This document shows positions 22,021-55,090 of a DNA stretch of 64,000 nt, piece by piece. Where the stretch lies: assembly GCA_903813345.2 (NCBI GenBank), contig CAIIXF020000002.1, positions 2,702,001-2,766,000 on the forward strand. Direction: 5' to 3'. A model generated the notes under the pieces. The model made no database searches. It worked only from the letters and a program-made list of their open reading frames with translations, and had not been told where the DNA came from. This DNA is from Owenia fusiformis. Lineage: Eukaryota; Annelida; Polychaeta; Sabellida; Oweniidae. Numbering within the stretch: position 1 is the stretch's first letter; every line of letters begins with the position of its first letter. Both the position numbers and the translations under genes were made by a program.

Positions 22021-22746
22021 TAAAAACAGGATCTTAAGAGGTTCTGGACAAATCATTTGATTCTGGACTTGTCATATTTTTTTTTCAACGAAATGACATC
22101 CACGGGTTGAATTTTTATTAGCTATTTAGAGAGTGAGTCCTGCCTAGTATTAATTTCAATAAAAAAAGATAAAATAGAACCCTATTTGAGAGTCAATCTA
22201 ATACTTACATTACATTGATAAATTAAGGCAAATCCTGAAATATTTTTAAAGTGCATTTTTTATGAAATATTATCCAGCAAGTATTTAGATGAAACGGTCT
22301 TATTTAAATACAAATCATAACATGATGATATTTTTCATGAAACATTTTTCATTTTTAATTTAGGTGAAAACCCTTACATGATGATGTGTTTTCATAACTT
22401 CTTTCATAAAATTCCATCAAGGGGTGAAGATAAAATGATCGAATTTAAGTGATTTAAGGATCACGAGAATATGTTTTCTTGGATATTTTCTATGAAATCC
22501 CATCCAGTGGTCAAGGTAAAATTTAGATTTTGATTTGGTATTAGGTCACGTGTTCCAAAGATCCATATAAGGCCCATAGAACCATATGGGAACGTCATTT
22601 TGAATGTCACGTGATAGATCCATATAAGGCTTTTAGAACCATGTCGGGAAAGATGAGGGGAAGCCCCTGACACCTGTTTCAAGAATTTATCCGAACGTTG
22701 TTCAGATCATATCGGTTTTTATGCACTTCATTATTGTACCGAAGTA
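22021..22746 (+). repeat. Dispersed ~1.4-kb repeat, copy 1 (5' half)
   Basis: It begins AACAGGATCTTAAGAGGTTC and is closely similar to 26362-27085, including CAAGGGGTGAAGATAAAATG-type and TTTTATGCACTTCATTATT segments. Similarity to copies 2 and 3 ends at TACCGAAGT near 22745, where the GGCCCAACGTTGG array begins. No protein-coding capacity was recognised. Confidence 0.8.
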
Positions 22747-26358: not shown

Positions 26359-26361
26359 ACT

Positions 26362-27801
26362 ATAAACAGGATCTTAAGAGGTTCTGGACAAATCATTTGA
26401 TTCTGGACTTGACATATTTTTTTTCCAACGAAATCACATCCAAGGGTTGAATTTTTATTGGATATTTAGAGAGCGAGTCCTGTATTGATTTCAATAAAAA
26501 GGTTAAAATAGAACGCTATTTGAGAGTTAATCTTATACTTTCATTACATTGATAAATTAAGGCAAATTCTGAAAAATTTTAAAGTGCATTTTTTATGAAA
26601 TATTATCCAAGTATTTAGATGAAACGGTCTTATTTAAATACAAATCATAACATGATGATGTTTTTTCATAAAATATTTCTTCAAGAAATTCAATTGAAGG
26701 CTCAAGATAAAACGAGCTAATTTAGGTGAAAACCCTTACATGATGATGTGTTTTCATGACTTCTTTCATAAAATTCCATCAAGGGGTGAAAATAAAATGA
26801 TCGAATTTAAGTGATTTAAGGATCACGAGGATAGGTTTTCTTGGATATTTTCTATGAAATCCCATCCAGTGGTCAAGGTAAAATTTTTATTTGGTATATT
26901 TGGTCACGTGTTCGAACCCATAGAACCATATAGGAACGTCATTTTGAATGTTACGTGATAAATCCATATAAGGCTTTTAGAACAATGTGGGGAAAGATGA
27001 GGGGAAACCCCTGACACCTGTTCACGATTTTATCCGAACGTTCATCGGATCATTTCGGTTTTTATGCACTTCATTATTTTACCGAAGTTTGCCGATTCGA
27101 TTCGTCGTATTTCGGAATATTGGGGACAATTTTATACTCCATTGGGAGTATTTTTAATCTACTTCTTATTACGAAGATTCCCGAACCTTGTTCGGATAAA
27201 TCCGGATTTTCTGACCTACTTCATCTACCGAGATTTAACGAGTTTACATTCGGCTCATTTCGGAATCCTGGTGACAATTTTATACTCCATTGGAGTATTT
27301 TTGATCTACTTCTTATGACGAAGATTTCCGAACCTTGTTCGGATTAATCCGGATTTTCTGACCTACTTCATCTACCGAGATTTAACGAGTTTACATTCGT
27401 CTCATTTCGGAATCCTGGTGACAATTTTATACTCCATTGGAGTATTTTTGATCTACTTTTTCTGGATTTTGCCCTACTTATTATATCTTTACAACAAGCA
27501 AATCAAAAAATTCGCCATGAACGGGTCTCGATCGACTAACCTAGAGCATGGAAGCTAGGCACGTTAGCCATGAGGCTAACGTGCAACCGATACGAAAGGA
27601 TAAAAGTATTATATATTTATACCGAGCGTCAATTCAAAATGATCTTCACTTTTGACTGCACGTAAATACAACTCGTCAGTTGTATCCAGAATAGATGAAC
27701 GCCTATGGTACTAGTGAATAACCAAGTCCCAGGCGAGTGGTTCGCACCCCACCGTGATATGTTATTTTTGCTTTTTTAATACGACAGAAAGGAGCAAGGT
27801 C
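26362..27801 (+). repeat. Dispersed ~1.4-kb repeat, copy 2 (most complete uninterrupted copy)
   Basis: It runs from AAACAGGATCTTAAGAGG to GACAGAAAGGAGCAAGGT. An internal tandem repeat at about 27100-27475 has 2.6 units of roughly 147 bases, each with GACAATTTTATACTCCATTG and TTTCTGACCTACTTCATCTA. Near the right end the sequence GTGGTTCGCACCCCACC resembles a tRNA T-arm or Pol III B box, and on the opposite strand GATCGAGACCCG is a second B-box-like motif. Similarity to copy 3 on the minus strand covers the whole unit. No transposase was recognised, so it is probably a non-autonomous element or SINE-like composite. Confidence 0.75.
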
Positions 27802-32310: not shown

Positions 32311-32823
32311 ACCTCTGGAGTCATCGGGATTTTAAAGCGGCGTGCAAAGCGTAATCGGGTACACCCCAGTTCTCCGAAACCCATTACTCCGAAAAATAAA
32401 GTCATAATTTACCAGAGAAAGCGGGGGGCGTAGCTTACTTAAACTTACGTCAGTTTCATGCCATGTATTTGGCCAAATTAATGGCATGGACGCATTCTGT
32501 TATTCATAGATCTCTCTCTCACTTTGAATTGCATCCATTGCATGGCGTTACCAGAATGGCAGGAACGGGAGATTTATTTTACATTGTGATTCTAAAAAAA
32601 AGGTTATTAAAACACAATATATATTACGGAACAGTTTATCTTATCTTCTTCAATCTCTTTTATATAGGCAAAATAAAATGAAACATTTTGAAACAGATAA
32701 AATAATTTATCGCATAGAACTTTAAGAATAAAACAGTATACAAATTACGTTGTCAAAATATTTCGTCGCATTTAATTTCTTAGTCTCGGTCTCTTATCAA
32801 ATCGTAAAAGAATAAAACATTCT
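32311..32823. other. Non-coding flank of the palindrome
   Basis: No gene was recognised. It is single-copy relative to the right flank of the palindrome, which marks the outer edge at 32823/32824. Confidence 0.4.
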
Positions 32824-32829
32824 AGTAGT

Positions 32830-33000
32830 AATTCCCGGACCGCCTATATGGAGCGTTACTGGGGGAGGGGGAAAACTGCGGGAAATTTGAAAAATGGCGG
32901 GAATTTTGAATGTTTTCCGGCGCTGTGATTGGTCCGATCGAACACGTGACCACCGAGCGACCGTAATGAGTGACGTAGTGATGAATGATGTCCCCCTGAG
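32830..33000 (-). promoter_or_regulatory. Promoter-like GC-rich patch, left arm
   Basis: Read on the minus strand there are TGACGTAG-like (here CTACGTCA), GGTCACGTGTTC (E-box), GGACCAATCACAG (CCAAT box) and two E2F-like words, TTCCCGCC and TTTCCCGC, all within 150 bases of GC-rich, CpG-containing sequence. An identical copy lies at 49287-49457 in the other arm. No coding exon was recognised next to it. Function is inferred from motif clustering only. Confidence 0.4.
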
Positions 33001-36000
33001 GGTAAATGATGTAGGTTTGATGTTTCGAATGAGCGTGCGTGCCAAATAAGGTAATTAATAATCTAGCTAGAGGGGGCTAACTGGACCACCTGGTAAGTAA
33101 AAGTACGGAATAGCGTCCGGAGGGCTAAAACGTTGATTGACGGGTACAGAATAATATTTTTTGCGAATGTTGTATAAAAATAAAACGTTCTATTAGTTAT
33201 GATTATCAATGTATGTAAAATTTGGATTTAATTGATTGACTCAATGGAAAGTTAATTTTTAATCAATGGGTTTCTTCACATTTCTACTCCATTGTTTCTC
33301 TGACACATTAAGTTTACAACAAACAGCATTGAGGCCACCTCTTACACATGCACAAACAACCACCTGTATTCACTTTGCCAACCACAAAAATAGTCTTGAC
33401 ACACGACTCCTAAAATTTCAGCTAAATACATTACGCATTTTATACAAGCCCATACTTAACGAGTAACAATCCCTTCCCCTTGGTCAACAATTCTTTCAAA
33501 ATCATGCAGATTTTCACCATTCACATACATGTATTGATGTCAGAGCAATATAAGTAATACTTTAATCCCTTTGTCTTTTCAAGTCTGTGAAATGAGTGTT
33601 GTTCACTGATAACTAATCCGCTTGTTAGAGTTAATGGACTAATATCTAGAGCCGATTGTTCTAATTTCCACAAAACATAATAATTTGCAAATTAAGTTTT
33701 TTCATATTTATTTGATTGTATAGTGTCCCTCTTTCTATGATTAACATTGTGTTAAAATTTGGTTTGAATCGATTAACTCATTGGAAAGTTATTTTTTTAT
33801 TTTTAATTGATGACTTCTTTTCACATTTTCACTCCATTGTTAACGTTAATTTAAATCATTTATCTATTTCTTCTAAATATGTATTTTGTAAATATTTTTC
33901 AAATAGAAATAGAACAATCAAAATAAAATATGTGTGACATTTTAATTTGTAAGTAATGGAGATGAGAAGGCCAGTACAACAGTTGATCCTATTAACTGCC
34001 ATGCTGTGCATTCTTTGTTTTGTTTGGTTAAGTAATTAACCAGATGGGATGTACATCAAGTTGGACGAGAATAAACGCGTATAATATTTTTCAGAACCCA
34101 AATAATACAATATAATTTGATATATTCTGTTTAGATTGGAAAATACTAAAAAATAATATTTTTAAGAATAGAAAAATTCTTATTTGGATCTCACTTATTT
34201 CTAATTATATTATATTAATCTCTATATAATAGAGTATATTATGCTGGTTATATTTTTTTCCTCCATAATATAATATAATAATTACAATACTGAATGGAAA
34301 TACTGTATTATTACCCATCTTTTTACACAAATATTCGAAAATAAAACATCTTTTTATATATTATTTTATCGATTTCACCAAGTGCGTCCATTTTGAATCT
34401 TACGAGGCCCAAATGACAAAAGCGATCTACTCTTAATAGCCTTTCATTTGAGCATAATAAACCTATACTTTAGAAAAATCTAAAAAATAATGCAAATTCG
34501 CTTTTTCCGACCCCAAATTCATGGCCCATGGAGGTCATGGTGAAAAACTCGGAATATATATGAGACATAGGTAAATAGATGTTGTGAATATACTACCAAA
34601 ATTTCAAACAATAACATTTATTTTGGTTTAGAATGAAAAACTAAAGATGCTCTCAAAAAATCCCCGCAATCTTTAAAGCAGCGGCCATCTTGGAAATTTT
34701 TTTGCATACAATTATTCACCAATATACATCTTTCCACAAAATATGAAGAAAATCTGTCCACTAGTATTTGAGTTATCTTCTGGACAGACTGACGGACGGA
34801 TGGACAGAGGGCTTCACCATATCCCTACCGATCTTCGTTTGTTGGGATAATAATGTATGACTGGCTCCAAAAGAAAGTGATCAGCTTTTCAAATACTTTT
34901 TATTTGAAATAAAGCTAAATTTTGAAGATATCTCAAAGTTAACACAAAGAACTTCCGTAAGGTTGCCATTCTAAAAAAATGATGTTGTAACAGAAAGAAA
35001 TGTGTTTATCTCTTAAAACAACCTTATGTACAGGCTTTGTTGATGTCTACATTTGACTCATATATAGTCATGCAAAACAATAGATCAACAAATTATTTTA
35101 TAAAAATTTATAATACAGTTTATTAATAAAAACGAATGTCCCACTGTACAATTTACTTTATAAATTTCCTTTTTTATATTTTTACGATCTAAACTACGAA
35201 CTAACATAACACTTAAAGGAGAAACATAGCAAAAGGTATTCTGTGTCGGTTTGGATTAAACACACCAGTGACTACTCACTTTGGGCACAGCTTCCCTTTA
35301 AGTGCCAAAGATCCAACTATCATATTCGATGAATATGCAAATGTAGTAATGCAATGTAAAATGCCAATAAGTGAATATCTACATAGTACATACGCATTGT
35401 ACATTTAATGTTTAAAGGCATTGATCATTGGTTTTATTACATTTTATCTTATTCTACCAATAATTATTCCTGGTACAACCATTTTTGTATGAACTAAATT
35501 CTTAAAGATTATACTGTGAGCCTTATGATACACAAAACTAAATAAAAAACCAAACAACCTACAACTTGCAAAATTATTAGTTTTTGGTACAAACTCTATT
35601 TTGCAGGCTGTTGGAACTTTTTTATGTTGGGGTATTTAAATAGAGGCCCTTTTAAATGTAGAATGTACCTACATTTCAGAGTAAAATTATATCTTGATCC
35701 AGAGACTGAATTTCAATAATTATTGATACATACTTAGTCATTTTATATGGTAGTGTAAGCATCTATATTGTTTCATTGTATGTGTATACGTTATATCATA
35801 TCATATATCATTCAGCAACATATAAAAATATCATATATATATATACATCACTCTAGTATATGGTACTATATATTCACATGTTCTTTATTTTGGGTAATAT
35901 CCATAATTAATTATGAAAGCAGTGAAAATATCAATGACATCATGTTGAACATGCGTTTAAATAAGATGAAATATACAGATGATGTATGCAGCTTTAAAAT

Positions 36001-39000
36001 AGTATATAATATACACTTTACAAGCACCAATACCATTTCTAATCTAGATTCTTAAAGTATGAATAATAGTAATATGTAATTGATTTTTCAATTACTAAGA
36101 ATACTCATTAAATACTTGATTATAGGAACAAGTGTGTAATAATTAACGAACAAGGCATAAACATGCAAAGTGTTACCACCTGCCATTTGTTACAGATGCC
36201 AAACACTGAACTCCAAACACTGACCAAAAAAGTTGGAGACTATAACAAAATGTTACCACATAATGCGCAAATTCAAACAAATTCAGTCTAACAAAAATGT
36301 GCATAAAAATATGTATAAAGTATTACAGTAAAACCTGTTTGAGTCAACATTTCAAGGATCACAGAGAAGTGACTCATGAAAAACATTCAGATTCTTAGTG
36401 TGATCAATGGCATCAAATTAACACAGGGAGCATTTATCAATCTTATAATGAAGTCCACGATATAAAATATCCAATGAAAAAACTCCTGATCAAAGTAGGA
36501 TCATTTTGAAACCATACAAGTGCAGTTATACATCAATATGCTTGCTGGTTCTAATCCATTGAATGAAAGAAATGTGTAAACACTTCATCCACATTTATTG
36601 GTGTTTTTCTACAGTGGTTTGATTCTACTGTACATCTTACATAATATACTTATAATGTCAATAGATCTTTCCAATAAATCCTGACCCCTTTTTGGTGATC
36701 CAAGGAAATTTATACTTCTGTCCTGAACTGTAAGAATGACATCATGACCAATAGGTGTCATGATATAATGGATTGGTCTATTGTTCTTGCAACCTCACGG
36801 TTTTCTTTTTACTAATAAATATTAACATATCATACATGATTAAAAGACAAAATATATATAGACATTTACACATAGCTTGGTAAGATGTGTCTTATTCCAG
36901 CCAATCCGAACACAGTTTTTCACATAACAGCAGTGCGTGAAATAATCAATAACGCATTCTTTTATGTCCTCGTCATGGTGAGGGAGCTGGACTCACTGAG
37001 CGTTGCCAATTTGGCCCTTGCAAAAAGTTTCATCGAAAATATGTTGTTTTGATGATTTTATATCTTTTAAGTGACATGGAAGTACATATTTTGCAATGTG
37101 TGAAAAGTATTTAAGCCCAAGACTCAATGCATTATTGAATGACAATTCCTTTCAGGTGTGGCACTGGTGCTGGCACACCTCGTGCTAATTTTAGAAAGCA
37201 ACACCTTCAAGAAATGGTCATTCGACATTGCAATGGGTCAAAGGCTTAAATCTTTAAGCCTTGTGAAAAACCATTATTAATTTCACTGTAAAATCTCACA
37301 CACATTCAAACTCAGGCTATGTTCACTGAATTAATCATTAAAATTATGATCAAATAATATTGATTTTTCAAATAATACAAATTGTCTCTTCATGTATTAA
37401 TGACTTCCCTCGTGCTATGTCCAGAAAAAATCATTAAAATAATTTGCTCTTAAAATGTTAAACCTAATTAAAATTTTGCGTAGAATACATGTGTATGTCC
37501 ATATATGGTATGTACTTAGGCATGACTAAGTCACTACACTACTGAGAGTCTACAAATGTTACGCAAGTCGATGAACAATGAGCCGTTTATGTACAAAACT
37601 TGCCCAAAATGATATATACATTTTATACAGTTCTATATACATTCTGATTTTTGTTAACCAGCGTGGTAACAATTTGCTTTCACTAACTAGAAGACGATAT
37701 GGAAAAATAAACGACAGTTTAATGCTGTCCATAAAACTGGGTCATGTATAAAATTTTCACATTAGTGTTTTTTTTATAACTGGCCTTCACGCAAAACTAA
37801 AAACATTTGTCAGAATAAATGAAATAAATATTTTATGGTTTCGAAATAAGATGATCTGGAAAAATATAACGACAGCGCTGTGCTGCTCATAAAACTGGCC
37901 ATATTTAAAAGTCTCCCATTACTGGCTTTTTGTACTGGCCTTCGCACAATACTAGAAACGTATGTTAGAATAACTGATAAAAATACTTATACTGCCAAAA
38001 ATGACCGTGATATATGTCCACGTAAAATATTAAAAATCCTGCATTGTTGAATTCCAGCTTGAAAGTACTCAAGTAACATTCCTCTTATAAAAATGAACAC
38101 TCCATGTAGAAACATCAGTCCATTATTGTATATGTGTAAGTTTTTGAGAATATTGGTCCCATCATGAATATGCTACACCCGAGGCTGGGGTTGAATTTCA
38201 GCATATTGAGTTCTACTGTCATACACAGCCCTGGGGGGCTTCACTGGGGGGATCAGTTGACACTGGGATTGGAGCTAAGTCTGCGTACTGTAAGCCTTCA
38301 GCATTTAGAGACTTGGGCTGGAAGTAAGAAACTTAACTATACAAGTATGTTATAACACTTTAACTGCATGCATGGCAAATCCTATGATTGAACACAAATA
38401 AAAATTGGCAATTAAAAATGTATCATACTCTTAGATGTCTACTAACAACCCCCTCAAAACAATCTTCAACAAGGGTGATAGTCACTTAGGGAAAAGGAGG
38501 CTAAATAGATTTATTTCACACTTCAGTAAACGGAAAGATCTAAAAGACAAGGTATGATATGGTAAGTGATTCCAGACAGTAATATCTTTGACTATGAGAA
38601 TTTTTTCAATATAAATTCAACAGTCTCATCAATATAAATATAAGCTAATTTGTCCGATGTGGAAAATTTTGTCGCTGTCTAATCCCCCTTTTAGGGGCTA
38701 TAACAGCATCCCCCTCCCCCAGGCAAAATAACTGATATTGAATCAGAATTTGCGAATAATAGGATCTGCCAGGTCTCCTTGTTATAATACATTCAAAAAT
38801 CAATTGAATATAAAATCATTATTTACAAAACATGTTAACAGTTAACAGTTGGAAGCAAAAAGTTTATTACAAAATCATATAAGCTGATGAGTGATGATGT
38901 TTATAAAATGATAACCTTAATTTAAAATTAGAGATAACTAATGCATATTAAACCTTACATACATAATGGACATAATTACTACTACCACCATCAAATAATA

Positions 39001-39940
39001 AAAGCTAATTAGGCACAAAAAAGATAGATATAAAAGATGATAGTTTATAGAAAAGAAACATGTATGTCAATATCTAAAAACTACGTAATTTCACAAATGA
39101 CAAAACAGGTATATTGTGTTGTTACATAACATTAAGAGTATATCTACACAAGTAGAAAGACAGTGATTTGCATATTCCCAAGATATCTGGAAATTAGCCC
39201 TTCCCGAAACTCATTTTATAAATTCTTCTATTCTATATGACTGAATTTGTTAATCTTTCAAAGCTGTGAATTTTACGTGTACAGACCTAGAAATATGGTA
39301 ATGCTAAGGTGACTGTTTGTTAATGTGCACATCTAAGATGTGTCAAGACAAGATCAGGTGTGTCAGTGTCAAAATCTGTGATACATCAGACACGCCTAAT
39401 ACTTCTCGGGACACAAAAAGTAAGATTGAAGCACCCTGTGGCTGTATTCAGAAGTTTGCTATGATCATACTCTGCAGAAGTGAAAGCAAAATCATATATG
39501 ATACTGTCTTTGTTGCTAAGGCAACTCAACCTTAATGGAGTCTGGTGGTAATCAATTAGTTGGTCAACCAATGATTAACTGGATACTCAGCTTTGTATTG
39601 CTCAGCAACAAATACGACCAATCGCAACAACTGTTTCATTATACAGTATATGAAATAAGTACATGAGTGTTAAAGCTTGTGATTGGTCTAAACAGATCAG
39701 AGATTTATTTTTCCTACAAAGAGTATATCAGTAGCGCATATGCTCTGATACATGTAAAGAGTGATTCAGGGACACAAACAAGCAGTATTACCTGTTTATG
39801 TTTAAAACATTTAGCACATGGATCAATGGCAGTTAGTTAAACCTAAAATAAACCATTAAATACTCTCATTCAGTTTATCATTGCATAATATTGTTCACTT
39901 ATAGTTGCTCAAGGACAGGACCTACACAGCCAATATAATT

Positions 39941-40064
39941 CGACGCCGTTTCGGTATCAAAAAAATTTGGCACTGTTCCGGCACCGTTTCGACACCGTTC
40001 TGGCACCGAAACCTTTCGACACCAAAATCTGCTACCGGACTAGTCAGGCACCGAAACGGCGTCG
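39941..40064. repeat. GC-rich inverted repeat, left arm
   Basis: CGACGCCGTTTCGGT pairs with ACCGAAACGGCGTCG across a core of repeated GGCACCG/CGACACC words. The mirror copy is at 42221-42344. Structure suggests a very small MITE. Confidence 0.7.
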
Positions 40065-40120
40065 AAAATCAGATTGCATTTTGGGGGTGTAAGTATCACT
40101 CTCTAATGATAGCGGGATAT

Positions 40121-40280
40121 AGGTCGCATTCGGGAATTCAACTGTCAACTACCAGATTAACCAACAATTTTGGACAACTCATTTAGATATGAATAATACC
40201 TGCTGTTCCATTTATATTTAAAAGAGTTAGCAAAAGTAGGTCAAACCATCAGGTGGCAGTTGAATTCCCGAATGCTACCT
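40121..40280. mobile_element. MITE with GCATTCGGGAATTCAACTG ends, left arm
   Basis: The left end GCATTCGGGAATTCAACTG and the right end CAGTTGAATTCCCGAATGC are perfect inverted repeats, extended imperfectly through TACCAGATTAACC and GGTCAAACCATCAGGTGG. The internal ATTTATATTTAAAAGAGTT relates it to the cluster at 31891-32310. The mirror copy is at 42005-42164. Confidence 0.78.
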
Positions 40281-40940
40281 AAGTAACATACATTTGGAAG
40301 TACTTAAAAATGAATGTGCAATTCTCCAAATTCTTAATTGGTTTATACTCAGGGACCTCTAAAGGGAGATAATATTCATTTGATGTATAAATGTATAATT
40401 CATCCCCAACCTAACATTCTGACACCATCTAGACCCCATTGTACCTGAGCTTCCTTGCAGCGTCATGGCATGTGGTTTGGGCTACTCATTGAACTGAGGA
40501 TACTGGTTCAGTTTAATAATACAGGATGTTAAAAAAACGCAACCCAAAGAAATCACTATATCTTGAAAAATACTACTTCAATTATGTTCATTTTTTCAGG
40601 AAAGAAAGAAGAGACTGTGTATGTACAGGGTGTCCAATAAATAAGGTGAAAGATATTGTAACTTTCTTAATATTGCACCAATATTGATGAAATTTTCAGA
40701 GTTTGTAGCCCAAACCTTTTTACCTTTATTCTGTGAATTTAAAGCGTCTTCTATTTGATTGGACAGAGTTGTGGTTGCTATAGCAACCGAAACAACAAAA
40801 AGGCAGGGCAAGTTTGTTTACGTCACAACTTTCCAAGCCATATTTCTTCTTTCTGATAGCTTTATCCATACTTCCAGGTCTATCACTACCACAAATACAA
40901 TATAAAAACAGTCCTAAAGTCCCATTGTTATGAAAATAAG

Positions 40941-41210
40941 CTATTCGACAGAATGTCCATCTCTAGCTATACACTTCTTATGCCTATTCACCCACTCTCT
41001 AAACACACTTTCAAACCCATTCTTGCCCATTTCCTGAAGTCGTGCTAAGACATGTGATCTGAGTTCATCAGTGCTTCCAAATGTTTTTCCTCTCAAATCA
41101 CGCTTGAGTTCTGCATATAAGTAAAAGTCATTGGGTGCAAGGTCTGGGGAATATGGAGGGTGTGCAAGTAGGGGTATTCCCAGTGCCCTAATAGTTTCAC
41201 TAGTGAGCAT
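40941..41210 (-). pseudogene. Mariner transposase C-terminal fragment (left half and spacer)
   Basis: The frame contains AHPPYSPDLAPNDFYLYAEL, the conserved region of the third catalytic Asp of mariner transposases. ARLQEMGKNGFESVFREWVN and a C-terminal HKKCIARDGH follow. Transposases of this family cut and paste at TA sites. The N-terminal helix-turn-helix domain and the first two catalytic Asp residues are absent. The last 40 codons occur again on the plus strand at 41223-41346. Confidence 0.85.
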
Positions 41211-41222
41211 AGCTGTGGGTGG
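41065..41222. other. Unique 158-bp spacer at the palindrome centre
   Basis: This is the only part of the structure without a mirror copy. It continues the minus-strand mariner transposase frame of the left arm (PPYSPDLAPNDFYLY and upstream), so the left arm plus spacer is the original sequence and the right arm is the added copy. The junction GTGGGTGG|ACTCAG at 41222/41223 shows no obvious microhomology. Confidence 0.85.
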
Positions 41223-41346
41223 ACTCAGATCACATGTCTTAGCACGACTTCAGGAAATGGGCAAGAATGGGTTTGAAAGTGTGTTTAGAGAGTGGGTGAA
41301 TAGGCATAAGAAGTGTATAGCTAGAGATGGACATTCTGTCGAATAG
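41223..41346 (+). pseudogene. Mirror copy of the transposase 3' end
   Basis: It encodes the same last ~40 residues as 40941-41064 (RSHVLARLQEMGKNGF onwards), on the opposite strand. It starts exactly at the inner palindrome junction. Confidence 0.85.
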
Positions 41347-42004
41347 CTTATTTTCATAACAATGGGACTTTAGGACTGTTTTTATATTGTATTTGTGGTA
41401 GTGATAGACCTGGAAGTATGGATAAAGCTATCAGAAAGAAGAAATATGGCTTGGAAAGTTGTGACGTAAACAAACTTGCCCCGCCTTTTTGTTGTTTCGG
41501 TTGCTATCAACCACAACTCTGTCCAATCAAATAGAAGACGCTTTAAATTCACAGAATAAAGGTAAAAAGGTTTGGGCTACAAACTCTGAAAATTTCATCA
41601 ATATTGGTGCAATATTAAGAAAGTTACAATATCTTTCACCTTATTTATTGGACACCCTGTACATACACAGTCTCTTCTTTCTTTCCTGAAAAAATGAACA
41701 TAATTGAAGTAGTATTTTTCAAGATATAGTGATTTCTTTGGGTTGCGTTTTTTTAACATCCTGTATTATTAAACTGAACCAGTATCCTCAGTTCAATGAG
41801 TAGCCCAAACCACATGCCATGACGCTGCAAGGAAGCTCAGGTACAATGGGGTCTAGATGGTGTCAGAATGTTAGGTTGGGGATGAATTATACATTTATAC
41901 ATCAAATGAATATTATCTCCCTTTAGAGGTCCCTGAGTATAAACCAATTAAGAATTTGGAGAATTGCACATTCATTTTTAAGTACTTCCAAATGTATGTT
42001 ACTT

Positions 42005-42164
42005 AGGTAGCATTCGGGAATTCAACTGCCACCTGATGGTTTGACCTACTTTTGCTAACTCTTTTAAATATAAATGGAACAGCAGGTATTATTCATATCT
42101 AAATGAGTTGTCCAAAATTGTTGGTTAATCTGGTAGTTGACAGTTGAATTCCCGAATGCGACCT
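42005..42164. mobile_element. MITE, right arm copy
   Basis: Mirror copy of the element at 40121-40280 within the palindrome. Confidence 0.78.
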
Positions 42165-42220
42165 ATATCCCGCTATCATTAGAGAGTGATACTTACACCC
42201 CCAAAATGCAATCTGATTTT

Positions 42221-42344
42221 CGACGCCGTTTCGGTGCCTGACTAGTCCGGTAGCAGATTTTGGTGTCGAAAGGTTTCGGTGCCAGAACGGTGTCGAAACG
42301 GTGCCGGAACAGTGCCAAATTTTTTTGATACCGAAACGGCGTCG
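42221..42344. repeat. GC-rich inverted repeat, right arm copy
   Basis: Mirror copy of 39941-40064 within the palindrome. Confidence 0.7.
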
Positions 42345-45300
42345 AATTATATTGGCTGTGTAGGTCCTGTCCTTGAGCAACTATAAGTGAACAATATTAT
42401 GCAATGATAAACTGAATGAGAGTATTTAATGGTTTATTTTAGGTTTAACTAACTGCCATTGATCCATGTGCTAAATGTTTTAAACATAAACAGGTAATAC
42501 TGCTTGTTTGTGTCCCTGAATCACTCTTTACATGTATCAGAGCATATGCGCTACTGATATACTCTTTGTAGGAAAAATAAATCTCTGATCTGTTTAGACC
42601 AATCACAAGCTTTAACACTCATGTACTTATTTCATATACTGTATAATGAAACAGTTGTTGCGATTGGTCGTATTTGTTGCTGAGCAATACAAAGCTGAGT
42701 ATCCAGTTAATCATTGGTTGACCAACTAATTGATTACCACCAGACTCCATTAAGGTTGAGTTGCCTTAGCAACAAAGACAGTATCATATATGATTTTGCT
42801 TTCACTTCTGCAGAGTATGATCATAGCAAACTTCTGAATACAGCCACAGGGTGCTTCAATCTTACTTTTTGTGTCCCGAGAAGTATTAGGCGTGTCTGAT
42901 GTATCACAGATTTTGACACTGACACACCTGATCTTGTCTTGACACATCTTAGATGTGCACATTAACAAACAGTCACCTTAGCATTACCATATTTCTAGGT
43001 CTGTACACGTAAAATTCACAGCTTTGAAAGATTAACAAATTCAGTCATATAGAATAGAAGAATTTATAAAATGAGTTTCGGGAAGGGCTAATTTCCAGAT
43101 ATCTTGGGAATATGCAAATCACTGTCTTTCTACTTGTGTAGATATACTCTTAATGTTATGTAACAACACAATATACCTGTTTTGTCATTTGTGAAATTAC
43201 GTAGTTTTTAGATATTGACATACATGTTTCTTTTCTATAAACTATCATCTTTTATATCTATCTTTTTTGTGCCTAATTAGCTTTTATTATTTGATGGTGG
43301 TAGTAGTAATTATGTCCATTATGTATGTAAGGTTTAATATGCATTAGTTATCTCTAATTTTAAATTAAGGTTATCATTTTATAAACATCATCACTCATCA
43401 GCTTATATGATTTTGTAATAAACTTTTTGCTTCCAACTGTTAACTGTTAACATGTTTTGTAAATAATGATTTTATATTCAATTGATTTTTGAATGTATTA
43501 TAACAAGGAGACCTGGCAGATCCTATTATTCGCAAATTCTGATTCAATATCAGTTATTTTGCCTGGGGGAGGGGGATGCTGTTATAGCCCCTAAAAGGGG
43601 GATTAGACAGCGACAAAATTTTCCACATCGGACAAATTAGCTTATATTTATATTGATGAGACTGTTGAATTTATATTGAAAAAATTCTCATAGTCAAAGA
43701 TATTACTGTCTGGAATCACTTACCATATCATACCTTGTCTTTTAGATCTTTCCGTTTACTGAAGTGTGAAATAAATCTATTTAGCCTCCTTTTCCCTAAG
43801 TGACTATCACCCTTGTTGAAGATTGTTTTGAGGGGGTTGTTAGTAGACATCTAAGAGTATGATACATTTTTAATTGCCAATTTTTATTTGTGTTCAATCA
43901 TAGGATTTGCCATGCATGCAGTTAAAGTGTTATAACATACTTGTATAGTTAAGTTTCTTACTTCCAGCCCAAGTCTCTAAATGCTGAAGGCTTACAGTAC
44001 GCAGACTTAGCTCCAATCCCAGTGTCAACTGATCCCCCCAGTGAAGCCCCCCAGGGCTGTGTATGACAGTAGAACTCAATATGCTGAAATTCAACCCCAG
44101 CCTCGGGTGTAGCATATTCATGATGGGACCAATATTCTCAAAAACTTACACATATACAATAATGGACTGATGTTTCTACATGGAGTGTTCATTTTTATAA
44201 GAGGAATGTTACTTGAGTACTTTCAAGCTGGAATTCAACAATGCAGGATTTTTAATATTTTACGTGGACATATATCACGGTCATTTTTGGCAGTATAAGT
44301 ATTTTTATCAGTTATTCTAACATACGTTTCTAGTATTGTGCGAAGGCCAGTACAAAAAGCCAGTAATGGGAGACTTTTAAATATGGCCAGTTTTATGAGC
44401 AGCACAGCGCTGTCGTTATATTTTTCCAGATCATCTTATTTCGAAACCATAAAATATTTATTTCATTTATTCTGACAAATGTTTTTAGTTTTGCGTGAAG
44501 GCCAGTTATAAAAAAAACACTAATGTGAAAATTTTATACATGACCCAGTTTTATGGACAGCATTAAACTGTCGTTTATTTTTCCATATCGTCTTCTAGTT
44601 AGTGAAAGCAAATTGTTACCACGCTGGTTAACAAAAATCAGAATGTATATAGAACTGTATAAAATGTATATATCATTTTGGGCAAGTTTTGTACATAAAC
44701 GGCTCATTGTTCATCGACTTGCGTAACATTTGTAGACTCTCAGTAGTGTAGTGACTTAGTCATGCCTAAGTACATACCATATATGGACATACACATGTAT
44801 TCTACGCAAAATTTTAATTAGGTTTAACATTTTAAGAGCAAATTATTTTAATGATTTTTTCTGGACATAGCACGAGGGAAGTCATTAATACATGAAGAGA
44901 CAATTTGTATTATTTGAAAAATCAATATTATTTGATCATAATTTTAATGATTAATTCAGTGAACATAGCCTGAGTTTGAATGTGTGTGAGATTTTACAGT
45001 GAAATTAATAATGGTTTTTCACAAGGCTTAAAGATTTAAGCCTTTGACCCATTGCAATGTCGAATGACCATTTCTTGAAGGTGTTGCTTTCTAAAATTAG
45101 CACGAGGTGTGCCAGCACCAGTGCCACACCTGAAAGGAATTGTCATTCAATAATGCATTGAGTCTTGGGCTTAAATACTTTTCACACATTGCAAAATATG
45201 TACTTCCATGTCACTTAAAAGATATAAAATCATCAAAACAACATATTTTCGATGAAACTTTTTGCAAGGGCCAAATTGGCAACGCTCAGTGAGTCCAGCT

Positions 45301-48300
45301 CCCTCACCATGACGAGGACATAAAAGAATGCGTTATTGATTATTTCACGCACTGCTGTTATGTGAAAAACTGTGTTCGGATTGGCTGGAATAAGACACAT
45401 CTTACCAAGCTATGTGTAAATGTCTATATATATTTTGTCTTTTAATCATGTATGATATGTTAATATTTATTAGTAAAAAGAAAACCGTGAGGTTGCAAGA
45501 ACAATAGACCAATCCATTATATCATGACACCTATTGGTCATGATGTCATTCTTACAGTTCAGGACAGAAGTATAAATTTCCTTGGATCACCAAAAAGGGG
45601 TCAGGATTTATTGGAAAGATCTATTGACATTATAAGTATATTATGTAAGATGTACAGTAGAATCAAACCACTGTAGAAAAACACCAATAAATGTGGATGA
45701 AGTGTTTACACATTTCTTTCATTCAATGGATTAGAACCAGCAAGCATATTGATGTATAACTGCACTTGTATGGTTTCAAAATGATCCTACTTTGATCAGG
45801 AGTTTTTTCATTGGATATTTTATATCGTGGACTTCATTATAAGATTGATAAATGCTCCCTGTGTTAATTTGATGCCATTGATCACACTAAGAATCTGAAT
45901 GTTTTTCATGAGTCACTTCTCTGTGATCCTTGAAATGTTGACTCAAACAGGTTTTACTGTAATACTTTATACATATTTTTATGCACATTTTTGTTAGACT
46001 GAATTTGTTTGAATTTGCGCATTATGTGGTAACATTTTGTTATAGTCTCCAACTTTTTTGGTCAGTGTTTGGAGTTCAGTGTTTGGCATCTGTAACAAAT
46101 GGCAGGTGGTAACACTTTGCATGTTTATGCCTTGTTCGTTAATTATTACACACTTGTTCCTATAATCAAGTATTTAATGAGTATTCTTAGTAATTGAAAA
46201 ATCAATTACATATTACTATTATTCATACTTTAAGAATCTAGATTAGAAATGGTATTGGTGCTTGTAAAGTGTATATTATATACTATTTTAAAGCTGCATA
46301 CATCATCTGTATATTTCATCTTATTTAAACGCATGTTCAACATGATGTCATTGATATTTTCACTGCTTTCATAATTAATTATGGATATTACCCAAAATAA
46401 AGAACATGTGAATATATAGTACCATATACTAGAGTGATGTATATATATATATATGATATTTTTATATGTTGCTGAATGATATATGATATGATATAACGTA
46501 TACACATACAATGAAACAATATAGATGCTTACACTACCATATAAAATGACTAAGTATGTATCAATAATTATTGAAATTCAGTCTCTGGATCAAGATATAA
46601 TTTTACTCTGAAATGTAGGTACATTCTACATTTAAAAGGGCCTCTATTTAAATACCCCAACATAAAAAAGTTCCAACAGCCTGCAAAATAGAGTTTGTAC
46701 CAAAAACTAATAATTTTGCAAGTTGTAGGTTGTTTGGTTTTTTATTTAGTTTTGTGTATCATAAGGCTCACAGTATAATCTTTAAGAATTTAGTTCATAC
46801 AAAAATGGTTGTACCAGGAATAATTATTGGTAGAATAAGATAAAATGTAATAAAACCAATGATCAATGCCTTTAAACATTAAATGTACAATGCGTATGTA
46901 CTATGTAGATATTCACTTATTGGCATTTTACATTGCATTACTACATTTGCATATTCATCGAATATGATAGTTGGATCTTTGGCACTTAAAGGGAAGCTGT
47001 GCCCAAAGTGAGTAGTCACTGGTGTGTTTAATCCAAACCGACACAGAATACCTTTTGCTATGTTTCTCCTTTAAGTGTTATGTTAGTTCGTAGTTTAGAT
47101 CGTAAAAATATAAAAAAGGAAATTTATAAAGTAAATTGTACAGTGGGACATTCGTTTTTATTAATAAACTGTATTATAAATTTTTATAAAATAATTTGTT
47201 GATCTATTGTTTTGCATGACTATATATGAGTCAAATGTAGACATCAACAAAGCCTGTACATAAGGTTGTTTTAAGAGATAAACACATTTCTTTCTGTTAC
47301 AACATCATTTTTTTAGAATGGCAACCTTACGGAAGTTCTTTGTGTTAACTTTGAGATATCTTCAAAATTTAGCTTTATTTCAAATAAAAAGTATTTGAAA
47401 AGCTGATCACTTTCTTTTGGAGCCAGTCATACATTATTATCCCAACAAACGAAGATCGGTAGGGATATGGTGAAGCCCTCTGTCCATCCGTCCGTCAGTC
47501 TGTCCAGAAGATAACTCAAATACTAGTGGACAGATTTTCTTCATATTTTGTGGAAAGATGTATATTGGTGAATAATTGTATGCAAAAAAATTTCCAAGAT
47601 GGCCGCTGCTTTAAAGATTGCGGGGATTTTTTGAGAGCATCTTTAGTTTTTCATTCTAAACCAAAATAAATGTTATTGTTTGAAATTTTGGTAGTATATT
47701 CACAACATCTATTTACCTATGTCTCATATATATTCCGAGTTTTTCACCATGACCTCCATGGGCCATGAATTTGGGGTCGGAAAAAGCGAATTTGCATTAT
47801 TTTTTAGATTTTTCTAAAGTATAGGTTTATTATGCTCAAATGAAAGGCTATTAAGAGTAGATCGCTTTTGTCATTTGGGCCTCGTAAGATTCAAAATGGA
47901 CGCACTTGGTGAAATCGATAAAATAATATATAAAAAGATGTTTTATTTTCGAATATTTGTGTAAAAAGATGGGTAATAATACAGTATTTCCATTCAGTAT
48001 TGTAATTATTATATTATATTATGGAGGAAAAAAATATAACCAGCATAATATACTCTATTATATAGAGATTAATATAATATAATTAGAAATAAGTGAGATC
48101 CAAATAAGAATTTTTCTATTCTTAAAAATATTATTTTTTAGTATTTTCCAATCTAAACAGAATATATCAAATTATATTGTATTATTTGGGTTCTGAAAAA
48201 TATTATACGCGTTTATTCTCGTCCAACTTGATGTACATCCCATCTGGTTAATTACTTAACCAAACAAAACAAAGAATGCACAGCATGGCAGTTAATAGGA

Positions 48301-49286
48301 TCAACTGTTGTACTGGCCTTCTCATCTCCATTACTTACAAATTAAAATGTCACACATATTTTATTTTGATTGTTCTATTTCTATTTGAAAAATATTTACA
48401 AAATACATATTTAGAAGAAATAGATAAATGATTTAAATTAACGTTAACAATGGAGTGAAAATGTGAAAAGAAGTCATCAATTAAAAATAAAAAAATAACT
48501 TTCCAATGAGTTTATCGATTCAAACCAAATTTTAACACAATGTTAATCATAGAAAGAGGGACACTATACAATCAAATAAATATGAAAAAACTTAATTTGC
48601 AAATTATTATGTTTTGTGGAAATTAGAACAATCGGCTCTAGATATTAGTCCATTAACTCTAACAAGCGGATTAGTTATCAGTGAACAACACTCATTTCAC
48701 AGACTTGAAAAGACAAAGGGATTAAAGTATTACTTATATTGCTCTGACATCAATACATGTATGTGAATGGTGAAAATCTGCATGATTTTGAAAGAATTGT
48801 TGACCAAGGGGAAGGGATTGTTACTCGTTAAGTATGGGCTTGTATAAAATGCGTAATGTATTTAGCTGAAATTTTAGGAGTCGTGTGTCAAGACTATTTT
48901 TGTGGTTGGCAAAGTGAATACAGGTGGTTGTTTGTGCATGTGTAAGAGGTGGCCTCAATGCTGTTTGTTGTAAACTTAATGTGTCAGAGAAACAATGGAG
49001 TAGAAATGTGAAGAAACCCATTGATTAAAAATTAACTTTCCATTGAGTCAATCAATTAAATCCAAATTTTACATACATTGATAATCATAACTAATAGAAC
49101 GTTTTATTTTTATACAACATTCGCAAAAAATATTATTCTGTACCCGTCAATCAACGTTTTAGCCCTCCGGACGCTATTCCGTACTTTTACTTACCAGGTG
49201 GTCCAGTTAGCCCCCTCTAGCTAGATTATTAATTACCTTATTTGGCACGCACGCTCATTCGAAACATCAAACCTACATCATTTACC

Positions 49287-49457
49287 CTCAGGGGGACATC
49301 ATTCATCACTACGTCACTCATTACGGTCGCTCGGTGGTCACGTGTTCGATCGGACCAATCACAGCGCCGGAAAACATTCAAAATTCCCGCCATTTTTCAA
49401 ATTTCCCGCAGTTTTCCCCCTCCCCCAGTAACGCTCCATATAGGCGGTCCGGGAATT
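49287..49457 (+). promoter_or_regulatory. Promoter-like GC-rich patch, right arm
   Basis: This is the mirror copy of 32830-33000 with the same E-box, CCAAT and E2F-like words, pointing toward the unique flank beyond 49463. The palindrome edge lies within a few bases of its end, so whatever it normally drives may have been separated from it in one of the copies. Confidence 0.4.
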
Positions 49458-49463
49458 ACTACT

Positions 49464-50064
49464 CATTCTATACTTAATCACTTGGGATTTATGTTTCGGC
49501 ATTCGTTTCAGGCATTTGTTTTTTATGTTCTTCTCCTGAAATGTATTTGTTTGACAATAATCAGAGAAAGTGCGTATACGTATAAATATGCCACGCAAAC
49601 AAACGGGTGTGACTTCAATTTCTTGTCTGTCTGAGGACGTATTGGGAACGAGGTAGAATTAAAGAATTCTTATGAACGAGTCATGCAAGATACTAGAACT
49701 AGTAAAGTAATGTAAATGGATAAGTTAATTTCTGATGGATCTGGATATAATATATTTCAAAACTTTGTAAACACTAGATAACTTCATTTAGGCAGATATA
49801 GTATCTTGATATATTTGGCTATCATGCGTTTAAAATACGTTCCTAAAACTATGAAGACGTTAGGTGAGAAATATTGACGTGTCGCAAAATGCTCGCGCAC
49901 GCATTGTTACACATTTTGTGGCGTAATCCAGAGGATCCTCGCTTTTAACATGATAGAATGTGACGTTTTTGAGAAAAATGTACACACATGAAAATCCTTT
50001 CGTCCTCCACATTTACGTCTATATCTCAAAACATTTTAGACGAATAACTCTGATATCATATATA
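49464..50064. other. Non-coding flank right of the palindrome
   Basis: No gene was recognised. TGACGTGTCGCAAAA at 49875-49889 is the exact reverse complement of TTTTGCGACACGTCA near 51595-51609 and may mark the ends of a larger element of about 1.7 kb into which the mariner at 50065 inserted. Confidence 0.4.
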
Positions 50065-50886
50065 CAGGGTGTCCAATAAATAAGGTAAAAGATATTGTAA
50101 CTTTCTTAATATTGGAATAATCTTGATGAAATTTTCAGGGTTTGTAGCCCAAACCTTTTTACCTTTATTCTGTGAATTTAAAGCGTCTTCTATTTTATTG
50201 GCCAGAGTTGTGGTTGCTATAGCAACTGAAACAACAAAAAGGCGGGGCAAGTTTGTTTACGTCACAACTTTCCAAAACATATTTATTCTTTCTGATAGCT
50301 TTATTCATACTTCAAGGTCTATTTCTATCACAAATTGCACAAATTGCACGCACTCCATATTTCCCAGACCTTGCACCCAATGACTTTTACTTATATGCAG
50401 AGCTCGAATGTGTCTTGAGAGGAAATAAATTTGGAAGCACTGGTGAACTCAGATCACATGTCTTAGCAAGACTTCAGGAAATGGGCAAGAATGGGTTTGA
50501 AAGTGTGTTTAGAGAGTGGAAGAATAGGCATAAGAAGTGTATAGGTAGAGATGGACATTATGTTGAATAGCTTATTTTCATAACAAATTGGACTTTAGGA
50601 CTGTTTTTATATTGTATTTGCGGTAGTAATAGACCTTGAAGTATGAATAAAGGTATCAGAAAGAATCAATATGTTTTGGAAAGTTGTGACGTAAACAAAC
50701 TTGCCCCGCCTTTTTGTTGTTTTGGTTACTATAGCAACCACAACTCTGGCCAATCAAACAGAAGACGCTTTAAATTCACAGAATAAAGGTAAAAAGGTTT
50801 TGGCTACAAACTCTGAAAATTTCATCAAGATTGGTGCAATATTAAGAAAGTAACAATATCTTTCACCTTATTTATTGGACACCCTG
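50065..50886 (+). mobile_element. Long-TIR mariner, internally deleted
   Basis: Both ends begin CAGGGTGTCCAATAAATAAG read inwards, and the inverted similarity runs for about 265 bases, including GTTTGTTTACGTCACAAC. TA flanks it (50063-50064 and 50887-50888). The element is 822 bases and keeps only the C-terminal third of a transposase. It is a close relative of the element at the palindrome centre but is an independent insertion. Confidence 0.85.
50350..50570 (+). pseudogene. Mariner transposase C-terminal fragment
   Basis: FPDLAPNDFYLYAELECVLR is followed by SHVLARLQEMGKNGFESVF and a C-terminal HKKCIGRDGHYVE. It retains the third catalytic Asp region only. It joins directly to the left terminal repeat, so the 5' two thirds of the gene were deleted. 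Confidence 0.85.
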
Positions 50887-52239
50887 TATATTGTTAATGG
50901 GCTAGGAGCATCATAAAACACGAATCAATTGATATTTTAGGTGAAATATATATACGTGTTGCTGTGCTTGAAAATAGGCGAATGGCGTAAATTAGCCATA
51001 TTTTAATGAATTTTGAAAACCTTTCGTCCTCCACTTTTCCACATACAACAGAAAACACATACTTTTGTGAACATAATCAACTATTTATTAATAAACTAGA
51101 GTTTAGGAGCAAAATAATCATGTATGATTTATTAAAAATTGATCTCGTATTTTTTGTTTAATGTACACCTGAAAAGTTGAAGGTAGCAAAAAATGAGCAA
51201 AAAAGGTCGCTGTCAACAGATTCTATTTTTCAGACTCTATGACGTCACAATATGGGACGCTTACTAAAATTCATCCTTTGAAATAAAACTTCTATCTGCC
51301 TTTATCAAGACGAAAAATAAGTATAATAGTCATATATTGTTTGAGTTATGAGCGTTTAAAGACGAAAAATAATTCAAAATGTAACGTGTCAACATGGGAT
51401 ATTTGCCAGATGTTTTGGTAAAAACTCTTTTTTAAAAACGAACGCGCAAGAATCGTGAACGGAGTGTAGTTGATCTAAAATCTTCATCGAAACAGCTTTA
51501 AAATGATATATAACTTTAATTAGAATATTATCTTATAATTCGGGGAATCAAAGTTACATTCACGCGATACCCTTAAAAACAAATGCGCCACCTTTTTGCG
51601 ACACGTCATTGCTATTGTACGTTCGAAAAGTATTTGGTTGTATTTTGTAGTTCTCAAGTTACCCATGAACTTTCGTGGGCTAATTAACGTCTTGACTTAG
51701 CATATTTAGCCTAATTTTGCAATGATGTCAACGTGATTCAAATGTTATGCTGTCGTGATTCGCAGAGGTTGCGACAAGATTCGTTTTACAACAGATGTAA
51801 CTATGAGAACATGAAAGCTCATAATCCTGATTATGCAACCTTATACAATCGTTATCTTTGGGACAAGAGCCCAAAAACAAGGTACTCGTGAACGAGAGTT
51901 GAATTTGCTCCGTGAACGATAGGATACGCTGTTCCCCACCAACAAAATACAGACATATGCTTCAGTGTCCTCAACGCAGATTGTAGAGAACAAGAGAAAA
52001 AATGAAATATACTTTGCCATAACAGAATACTGTTAAAGTATTGTTTATTAAGTTTATTAAGTTTCACAAATAACTTTTAAATGCCTTCTTTACCGTCAAC
52101 GGACACTCAAATAAATACACAATACAATGCAATGCAATGTAATACAACGCATTACAATACAAACTAAATTAGAGTATTTGTGCATAGCATTTTCCCCTTT
52201 TGTTTGAAGGATATTTTAAGAATAATTCCAGCGTTCGTA
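50887..52239. other. Non-coding stretch
   Basis: No gene was recognised. CCTTTCGTCCTCCAC at about 51020 repeats the sequence at 49996, on the other side of the mariner. A degenerate ATGCA/ATACA microsatellite lies at 52115-52160. Confidence 0.4.
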
Positions 52240-52395: not shown

Positions 52396-52645
52396 AATGA
52401 TGTTCCAGAAAAATAAATTTTAGGACTATGACAGGATCTCAATGAAATCCAAAATGTAACATTTAGTTGATTCCACACGGGGCGTGTACATTGTCTAACA
52501 TATATCTAAAAGGTTTACACTGTCTTGATTAATGAACTTCTTAGATCTAGTCGCGCTTCAGAAGTGGAAATCCTTCAATTATCAGAGGTTAATGTTTCTA
52601 AAACTGTATTGAAATAAACGTACGTCTTGTTTTCAAACCTACACC
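52396..52645. other. Short non-coding stretch
   Basis: Nothing recognised; it ends at copy 3 of the dispersed repeat. Confidence 0.35.
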
Positions 52646-54365
52646 TTGCTCCTTTCTGTCGTATTAATAAAGCAAAAATAACATATCACGGTGGGATACG
52701 AACCACTCGCCTGGGATTTGGTTATTCACTAACACCATAGGCGTTCACCTATTCTGGATACAACTGACGAGTTGTATCTAAGTGGAGTCAAAAGCGAAGA
52801 TCATTCTAAATTGACGCTCGGTATAAATATATGATACTTTTATCATCTCACACAGGTGAACGTTAGCCTCATGGCTAGCGTGTTTAGCTACCCTCTCTAG
52901 GTTAGTCGATCGAACCCCGTTCATGGCGAACTTTTTGATTTGCTTGCTGTCAACTTATAATAAGTAGGGCAAAATCCAGAAAAAGTAGATCAAAAATACT
53001 CCAATGGAGTATAAAATTGTCACCAGGATTCCGAAATGAGACGAATGTTAACTCGTTAAATCTCGGTAGATAAAGTAGGTCAGAAAATCCGGATTAATCC
53101 GAACTGATTCGGGAATCTTCGTCATAAGAAGTAGATCAAAAATCCAGAGAAGTAGATCAAAAATACTCCAATGGAGTATAAAATTGTCACCAGGATTCCG
53201 AAATGAGCCGAATGTAAACTCGTTAAATCTCGGTAGATGAAGTAGGTCAGAAAATCCGGATTTATCCGAACAAGGTTCGGGAATCTTCGTAATAAGAAGT
53301 AGATTAAAAATACTCCCAATGGAGTATAAAATTGTCCCCAATATTCCGAAATACGACGAATCGAATCGGCAAACTTCGGTAAAATAATGAAGTGCATAAA
53401 AACCGAAATGATCCGATGAACGTTCGGATAAAATCGTGAACAGGTGTCAGGGGTTTCCCCTCATCTTTCCCCACATTGTTCTAAAAGCCTTATATGGATT
53501 TATCACGTAACATTCAAAATGACGTTCCTATATGGTTCTATGGGTTCGAACACGTGACCAAATATACCAAATAAAAATTTTACCTTGACCACTGGATGGG
53601 ATTTCATAGAAAATATCCAAGAAAACCTATCCTCGTGATCCTTAAATCACTTAAATTCGATCATTTTATTTTCACCCCTTGATGGAATTTTATGAAAGAA
53701 GTCATGAAAACACATCATCATGTAAGGGTTTTCACCTAAATTAGCTCGTTTTATCTTGAGCCTTCAATTGAATTTCTTGAAGAAATATTTTATGAAAAAA
53801 TATCATCATGTTATGATCATCCTCCGATCACAGGGATTCAAAATCCAGAATATCTTCCCTCTTTTTACCCCCTGCTATAACCAAGTTGGACGCGACCGAT
53901 TAAGCTGAATCACGTGATCTAATTTTGCGCCGATAACGTATACATGATTGCTGTTGCTGTCGCTGTTGCTGTTGCGACAGCCAATCAAATTGCGAGTTCT
54001 TAATCGGGGAAATGCTAACTGCTTATAGCAGGGGGAAGAAGGAGGTACGGATTCTGGACACCTGCTTAGGAGGATGGTTATGATTTGTATTTAAATAAGA
54101 CCGTTTCATCTAAATACTTGGATAATATTTCATAAAAAATGCACTTTAAATTTTTTCAGAATTTGCCTTAATTTATCAATGTAATGAAAGTATAAGATTA
54201 ACTCTCAAATAGCGTTCTATTTTAACCTTTTTATTGAAATCAATACAGGACTCGCTCTCTAAATATCCAATAAAAATTCAACCCTTGGATGTGATTTCGT
54301 TGGAAAAAAAATATGTCAAGTCCAGAATCAAATGATTTGTCCAGAACCTCTTAAGATCCTGTTTA
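52646..54365 (-). repeat. Dispersed ~1.4-kb repeat, copy 3, inverted
   Basis: This is the reverse complement of 26362-27801 over its whole length, apart from a 259-bp MITE insertion and a rearranged tandem-repeat unit near 53140 (AAAATCCAGAGAAGTAGATC). The tRNA-like motif is better preserved here: on the plus strand near 52905 GATCGAACCCCG is close to a Pol III B box, and on the minus strand GTGGTTCGTATCCCACC resembles a T-arm. Confidence 0.8.
53818..54076. mobile_element. hAT-like MITE with 8-bp target duplication
   Basis: GTTATGAT flanks it on both sides (53810-53817 and 54077-54084), and copy 2 of the host repeat has the uninterrupted site at about 26645. The ends read CATCCTCCGATCACAGG and, on the minus strand, CATCCTCCTAAGCAGGT. 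Subterminal CCCCCTGCTATAA occurs in inverted form at both ends. An 8-bp duplication with short inverted ends is typical of hAT elements. It has no coding capacity. Confidence 0.82.
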
Positions 54366-55090
54366 TAAAAGAGTGACCAGTCTGCCAGTGCAGTACTGTT
54401 GGTGGAATGCCTAAAAATATAAAATCAACACCATAAGTTAATACGTAGCAAAGTAAAATATCATTAAAATGCAGATTAATGTTTAATGTTTTAGTTGATA
54501 AAACCATATTTGTGATGGGGATTAAGTAATATATGAATGAAACTTTATTTCCCCACACAATGCCTGAAGCATTATATAAACATCAAAACACACGAAGCAT
54601 GACTTGTTCAATATGGTCAATAGGGTCAAGTTGACCTTACAAAATGTCGTATTGACCTTACACATACTACAAATATAAATCAAATAACAAGAGTGGAATT
54701 TTACCTGACAATAAAGCTACTTGGGCTGTGAGTGTGGGCATATGGTGTAGTAAGTCAGCTATGAACTAACCTAAAAATGTACATTTGAACCTAAGTGAAA
54801 ATGTAAACAAAGGAATGAAATCCAATATGTAGTATATTTCCAATAGACCGAATATCCTGAGAATTCGGTCTATTGATCTTCATTTGGCTCGTGTGGGAAA
54901 TTCCATGAAATTTCGTGCACATTAATTTCTCTTTCATTACAAGTTCTCTCAAGATGAAATTTCGTACATGTATTACTGATGCATTTATCTTTAACATTTC
55001 CTTAAAGTGCCTGATAAACTATAAAATGCGCATGCGTCCAGGTGTTGATAAACTATAAATAGCGAAAACCCAGGGTTTGTCATCACAAGG
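54366..55090. other. Non-coding stretch with a short hairpin
   Basis: AATAGACCGAAT at 54842 and ATTCGGTCTATT at 54863 form a perfect 12-bp stem with a loop of about 9 bases. No gene, terminator context or other repeat was recognised. Confidence 0.45.

Follow-up and report, generated by a model that had tools for sequence, protein, structure and literature searches.

The large palindrome in the stretch of DNA analyzed here (64,000 nt from Owenia fusiformis, hereafter called the window) is genuine and was inserted recently; it contains host DNA between Maverick ends and has no recognized genes of its own. The earlier note on this DNA had described a pair of nearly identical inverted arms; beyond that first reading, the whole palindrome proves to have been inserted as a single mobile unit, bounded by Maverick ends and filled with host-derived DNA. 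Its parts and immediate surroundings are listed below in window coordinates.

32818–32823, plus strand: left target-site duplication (TSD) CATTCT, directly outside the left edge
32824–49463, no strand: whole inserted unit, palindromic, 16,640 bp, with an empty site in four of four fetched target-repeat copies
32824–41064, plus strand: left arm, 8,241 bp
32824–33224, plus strand: Maverick end, starting AGTAGT, 401 bp, 94.5% identical to an element on contigs C40 and C489
33196–33224, plus strand: junction of the Maverick end with a dispersed repeat, a 29-bp homology overlap with 10 identical bases, GTTATGATTA
33196–34383, plus strand: 3' end of a dispersed host repeat, finishing ...TTTCACCAAGTG (mirror 47904–49091)
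34384–40522, plus strand: host DNA, ~6.1 kb, collinear with G000 C10:7427631-7435653 (mirror about 41763–47903)
38173–38317, minus strand: apparent last exon of a host gene, suggested by an open frame and a splice-like site (mirror about 43968–44112)
40520–40628, plus strand: end piece of another dispersed host repeat, beside the mariner
40620–41222, minus strand: mariner-derived piece (terminal repeat and 3' part of the transposase), within which the arms fold back
41065–41222, no strand: asymmetric loop, 158 bp, which extends the mariner transposase sequence of the left arm; the joint lies between 41222 and 41223
41223–49463, minus strand: right arm, 8,241 bp, mirroring the left arm
49063–49463, minus strand: Maverick end at the right edge, finishing ACTACT, with 0 differences from the left end
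49464–49469, plus strand: right TSD CATTCT, directly outside the right edge
49464–50058, plus strand: right flank, part of the young dispersed repeat into which the unit was inserted, found at at least 39 other places

The two arms are 99.927% identical end to end over 8,243 alignment columns, and chance cannot account for an 8.2-kb inverted pair of such identity. Arm identity ends at the outer edge on both sides, and the alignment agrees with the arm edges and the 158-bp spacer given in the earlier note. It contains two mismatches and two gap openings: substitutions at 33774/48513 (T/A) and 40805/41482 (A/G), a 2-bp difference in an AT-microsatellite (35832 vs. 46453–46454), and 2 bp opposite 40778–40779 that are missing from the right arm. 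The earlier note had correctly listed the 2-bp loss and the microsatellite change, but had counted one substitution where there are two. When the mariner copy at 50059–50891 is taken as an outgroup, the A at 40805 proves to have arisen in the left arm and the 2-bp loss in the right arm. Because each arm has its own private change, gene conversion, which had been offered as one source of the arm identity, is unnecessary and was dropped. A very recent inverted duplication, also proposed at the outset, is supported by the near-identical arms and the one-sided, fold-back-like loop. A tRNA scan and an Rfam scan gave no match.

The palindrome begins with AGTAGT and finishes with ACTACT, and nowhere else in the window are such tips paired and bounded by a 6-bp direct repeat. 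The direct repeat at its edges is exactly 6 bp long (extension to 7 bp fails), and the probability of a chance 6-bp match at two given places in the window is ~0.0004. Copies of the target repeat, taken from the best 40 of 1,163 candidates, were 100% identical at 37 places and 99% identical (rounded) at two, over 413–595 bp. All four of the uninterrupted copies that were fetched carry an empty site with a single CATTCT, and they equal the joined flanks without any difference in the aligned part. The TSD and the exact empty sites thus show that all 16,640 bp were inserted as one unit and that the assembly did not create the palindrome by mirroring a flank. Among the target-repeat copies listed, most have 413 bp in common and a few the full 595.

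The termini of the palindrome are evidently Maverick ends. A genome query with the first 400 bp of the arm gave four matches among four candidates: both ends of the palindrome itself, a single place on C489 and a single place on C40. Homology to the latter two starts at the AGTAGT tip and breaks off after position 401, with 22 substitutions in between. Directly inside the Maverick end on C40 lie ORFs of 81 and 187 aa. The 81-aa ORF of the C40/C489 element is 56–57% identical to the ORFs at the same place in two Mavericks on contigs C9 and C8 (E 1e-15 to 1e-19), and the 187-aa ORF is 51–52% identical to its counterparts there (E about 1e-63). Over 81% of its length, the 187-aa ORF also matches an Owenia fusiformis protein at 100% identity. 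In an alignment of terminal inverted repeats (TIRs), the block around CTGTGATTGGTC...CACGTGAC in the palindrome's left end was found to be common to the TIRs of these same two Mavericks. The composition of the arm shifts ~400 bp from the tip: the CpG ratio is 1.45 up to that point and 0.50 beyond it, compared with 0.69 and 0.86 in the flanks. However, because the first 300 bp (ratio 1.24) reach only the ~90th percentile of window segments, this shift supports a host-derived interior without proving it. The terminal 20-mer had 0 matches in a set of viral contigs from which Owenia fusiformis records may be left out.

Because C40 and C489 are near-identical to each other, in the element as well as beyond it, they probably represent a single locus in duplicate. 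No second end of the C40/C489 element was found, and it may be another truncated or host-joined Maverick. At C40:32361 and C489:57138, the Maverick end is followed by virus-like DNA, CpG-rich over ~3 kb, and further in by CpG-poor DNA, where an ORF resembles, by eye, a piece of a reverse transcriptase.

The genome contains 11 matches to the PolB family PF03175, including open frames of 1485 aa (C9) and 1475 aa (C8). The two gene-bearing Mavericks are:

C9:25120136-25138822: 18,687 bp, AGTAGT/ACTACT ends, TIR of 366 bp, TSD GGAGTG
C8:11359383-11381475: 22,093 bp, AGTAGT/ACTACT ends, TIR of 407 bp, TSD ATCTAA

According to sections of a survey of vertebrate Mavericks (PMC8097293), their commonest end motif is (AGT)2//(ACT)2 with 6-bp TSDs, the trinucleotide end repeat is linked to the jumping-back step of protein-primed replication, and the elements measure 12,723–24,620 bp (mean 16,862, SD 1,678) with TIRs of 46–1,447 bp (mean 402). 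The palindrome has a perfect 6-bp TSD (CATTCT), the (AGT)2//(ACT)2 motif at both tips, and an end linked by homology to gene-bearing Mavericks through the C40/C489 ORFs that match C8 and C9. Its 16,640 bp fall within the 12.7–24.6 kb range and close to the vertebrate mean, yet it is smaller than the genome's own C9 and C8 Mavericks. It therefore resembles Maverick/Polinton elements (polintoviruses) in end motif, 6-bp TSD, a homologous end of a few hundred bp, and size, but is unlike them in being a palindrome without a recognized Maverick gene whose 8.24-kb mirrored arms are mostly host DNA. Genes for PolB, integrase, ATPase, protease and capsid proteins were not detected in the left arm and loop, where 55 ORFs of at least 45 aa gave no convincing Pfam match (best E 0.024), although this is a weak test for Maverick genes because Pfam also missed the mariner piece. 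Since the defining genes are absent, we regard the palindrome as a gene-less derivative with Maverick ends rather than a Maverick proper.

Inward of the Maverick end, the arm consists of host DNA. For the dispersed repeat at 33196–34383, 11 of the 17 fetched copies were compared, and its end was seen in four copies. A genome search with 33224–40600 returned the best 40 of 7,867 candidates, and among the matches listed the C10 locus was the sole partner of 34384–40522 besides the arms themselves. This cargo differs from C10 by 232 substitutions in 5,560 aligned positions (4.17%) and by 36 indel events. A mariner-like insertion of ~2.1 kb is present at a TA in C10 but not in the arm, whose corresponding site is empty, and two stretches of the arm are absent from C10. 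The apparent last exon is open in C10, and its frame is shifted by one base in the arm; further up, a C10 ORF gave a sub-threshold I-set match (E 0.023). The mariner piece at the inner end of the arm was recognized by PDB chains of SETMAR and Mos1, and occurs at at least 39 other places at 93–97% identity.

The loop is a plain continuation of the mariner transposase reading of the left arm up to 41222, and the mirror copy starts at 41223. Such a one-sided, fold-back-like loop is in keeping with the remark in the earlier note that a polymerase turning back on its own template would leave an asymmetric loop. There is no clear microhomology at the joint, and the single strand near it folds no better than shuffled sequences (z 0.46). 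A self-primed hairpin at the loop was considered and rejected, since the folding does not exceed that of shuffles. Snap-back copying and the joining of two broken sisters both fit the joint.

Taken together, these observations are probably best explained by a gene-less Maverick derivative, in which a Maverick end was joined to host DNA, made palindromic, and inserted by Maverick enzymes. It would consist of two inverted copies of a series made up of the 401-bp Maverick end, a host repeat end, the ~6.1-kb host locus, a second host repeat end and half a mariner, placed tail to tail within the mariner. As for the order of events, we infer that illegitimate recombination would have joined a Maverick end to host DNA at a short stretch of partial likeness. 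The resulting linear molecule, intact at its Maverick tip but broken off within the mariner at the other, would then have been turned palindromic, either by fold-back copying or by the joining of two broken sisters, and would thereby have been supplied with a replication and integration end at both tips. Finally, a Maverick protein-primed polymerase and integrase would have copied and integrated the molecule in trans. Because no enzyme gene was recognized inside the palindrome, these enzymes must come from elsewhere; that replication was protein-primed and insertion integrase-mediated is suggested by the ends and the TSD. A linear extrachromosomal stage before integration is favored because the two arms mirror each other right up to the tip of the element and no further. 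Copying along a linear template would end in just this way, at the 5' end of the template, whereas an inverted duplication in the chromosome would need a switch-back inside the terminal repeat. The insertion is also recent, because the two 401-bp ends have 0 differences and the arms have two substitutions in 8,241 bp, whereas the paired TIRs differ at 6/362 positions in the C9 Maverick and at 7/407 in the C8 Maverick, and because the target repeat is young.

The same final anatomy would be reached in situ if a non-palindromic Maverick-ended insertion had later had its right half replaced by an inverted copy of the left, with resolution in the terminal repeats, for which Maverick TIRs of a few hundred bp would supply the homology. 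We think this improbable because a second switch would be needed exactly inside the terminal repeat, because the young target repeat leaves little time, and because no non-palindromic version was present among the matches listed for the end or the interior (for the interior, the best 40 of 7,867). Overall, a linear extrachromosomal stage before integration is strongly preferred over an in-situ event. There is distinctly less to be said for a standing non-autonomous family with 8-kb terminal repeats that has long been palindromic and has moved repeatedly. Such a family would accommodate a cargo 4.2% diverged from C10, which implies that the capture or the split from the donor predates the insertion. 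However, the end query matched just this palindrome and C40/C489 (four matches, four candidates), and the host segment was found only here and at C10 among the matches listed.

An assembly or fold-back read artefact had been one of the options in the earlier note, and the near-identical arms and short, one-sided loop are what such an artefact could leave. We nevertheless judge it very unlikely, because an artefactual fold-back would mirror the flank too, while the edges here end at an AGTAGT tip and a TSD. With AGTAGT/ACTACT and the TSD at both edges, empty sites in four of the four fetched copies, and private changes in each arm, the palindrome in the assembly can be taken as real on the strength of its sequence. 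Least credible of all is an unrelated transposon or foldback element whose ends are merely Maverick-like. The interior without a Maverick gene is in keeping with this idea, but the end is homologous to that of an element whose Maverick ORFs lie just where they would be expected.

Although the insertion is recent, the cargo is 4.17% diverged from C10, and thus either parted from the C10 lineage well before the insertion or derives from a different lineage. In the exon, there is one substitution where 6.1 would be expected without constraint (P 0.015; P 0.19 if only one of the two copies is unconstrained), which leans towards a donor locus still under constraint. It is conceivable, though on the unlikely side, that the palindrome was a natural transducing molecule: host DNA of an Owenia lineage ~4% diverged would have been carried on a Maverick end, made palindromic, putatively packaged, delivered by a particle and integrated in the germ line. 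The recent insertion, the 4.2% divergence of the cargo, the absence of C10's mariner-like insertion and the exon count all fit a transducing molecule, and an old capture within the same lineage fits too. If the former is true, the palindrome would preserve in the germ line, as a fossil, a transfer of DNA from host to host by a virus.

Several other features of the window were noted. The palindrome is bracketed by an unrelated inverted repeat pair (26361–27800 and 52643–54367), with a third copy at 22020–22745. The first ~1.15 kb of the aligned pair is almost identical and the remainder about 94% identical, and the abrupt switch looks like ectopic gene conversion. The copy at 52643–54367 contains an insert of ~265 bp flanked by TCATAAC. 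The element at 50059–50891 is mariner-derived, with 277-bp terminal repeats and a transposase scrap, and is related to the mariner at the palindrome center. At 8137–12958, ORFs for a LINE endonuclease and reverse transcriptase come first, and the ORFs after them match DUF3504/tyrosine recombinase weakly. A search with a LINE protein gave distant animal matches only. Related minisatellites with 15–16-bp units, two of them in inverted orientation, lie at 59932–60098, 60719–60887 and 62812–62951, and a self-palindromic stretch with many ACCATGG-type units at 2815–3167.

Among the open-licence PMC papers listed, judged by titles and the beginnings of abstracts, there was no description of a palindromic or host-DNA-filled Maverick. 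The exact empty site shows that a Maverick-ended molecule consisting almost wholly of host DNA can insert as a unit. Maverick-type elements can apparently pick up and move host DNA, and the palindrome provides a testable case of Mavericks as its carriers. It also ties the giant palindromes of animal genomes to protein-primed mobile elements.

The closest analogue is the SYREC of adenovirus type 12, a giant palindrome made of a viral end and human cellular DNA, with the viral end at both tips, which is reported as virion-packaged DNA from cultured cells. The palindrome described here is likewise composed of a viral-type end and cellular DNA with that end at each tip, but it is of Maverick type and is known as an integrated copy in a genome assembly rather than as virion-packaged DNA. 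Sections of PMC13035915 and PMC9147251 contain no mention of SYREC, and those of an adenovirus packaging review (PMC5033970) mention no inverted duplication. In its structure, the palindrome works like the adenovirus-12 symmetric recombinants. To these palindromic virus-host molecules of adenovirus cell culture it adds a counterpart that is integrated and can be dated.

Other known elements share single features with the palindrome. Foldback/Galileo elements also have very long terminal inverted repeats, but their TSDs are of 7 or 9 bp and they are not known to have viral ends, whereas the palindrome has the Maverick motif and a TSD of 6 bp that fails at 7. Pack-type elements and Helitrons carry host gene fragments, and capture of such fragments by Helitrons is described in sections of PMC6431247. 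These elements resemble the palindrome in holding a piece of a host gene between transposon ends, but differ from it in that the palindrome has viral-type ends and its cargo is doubled as a palindrome.
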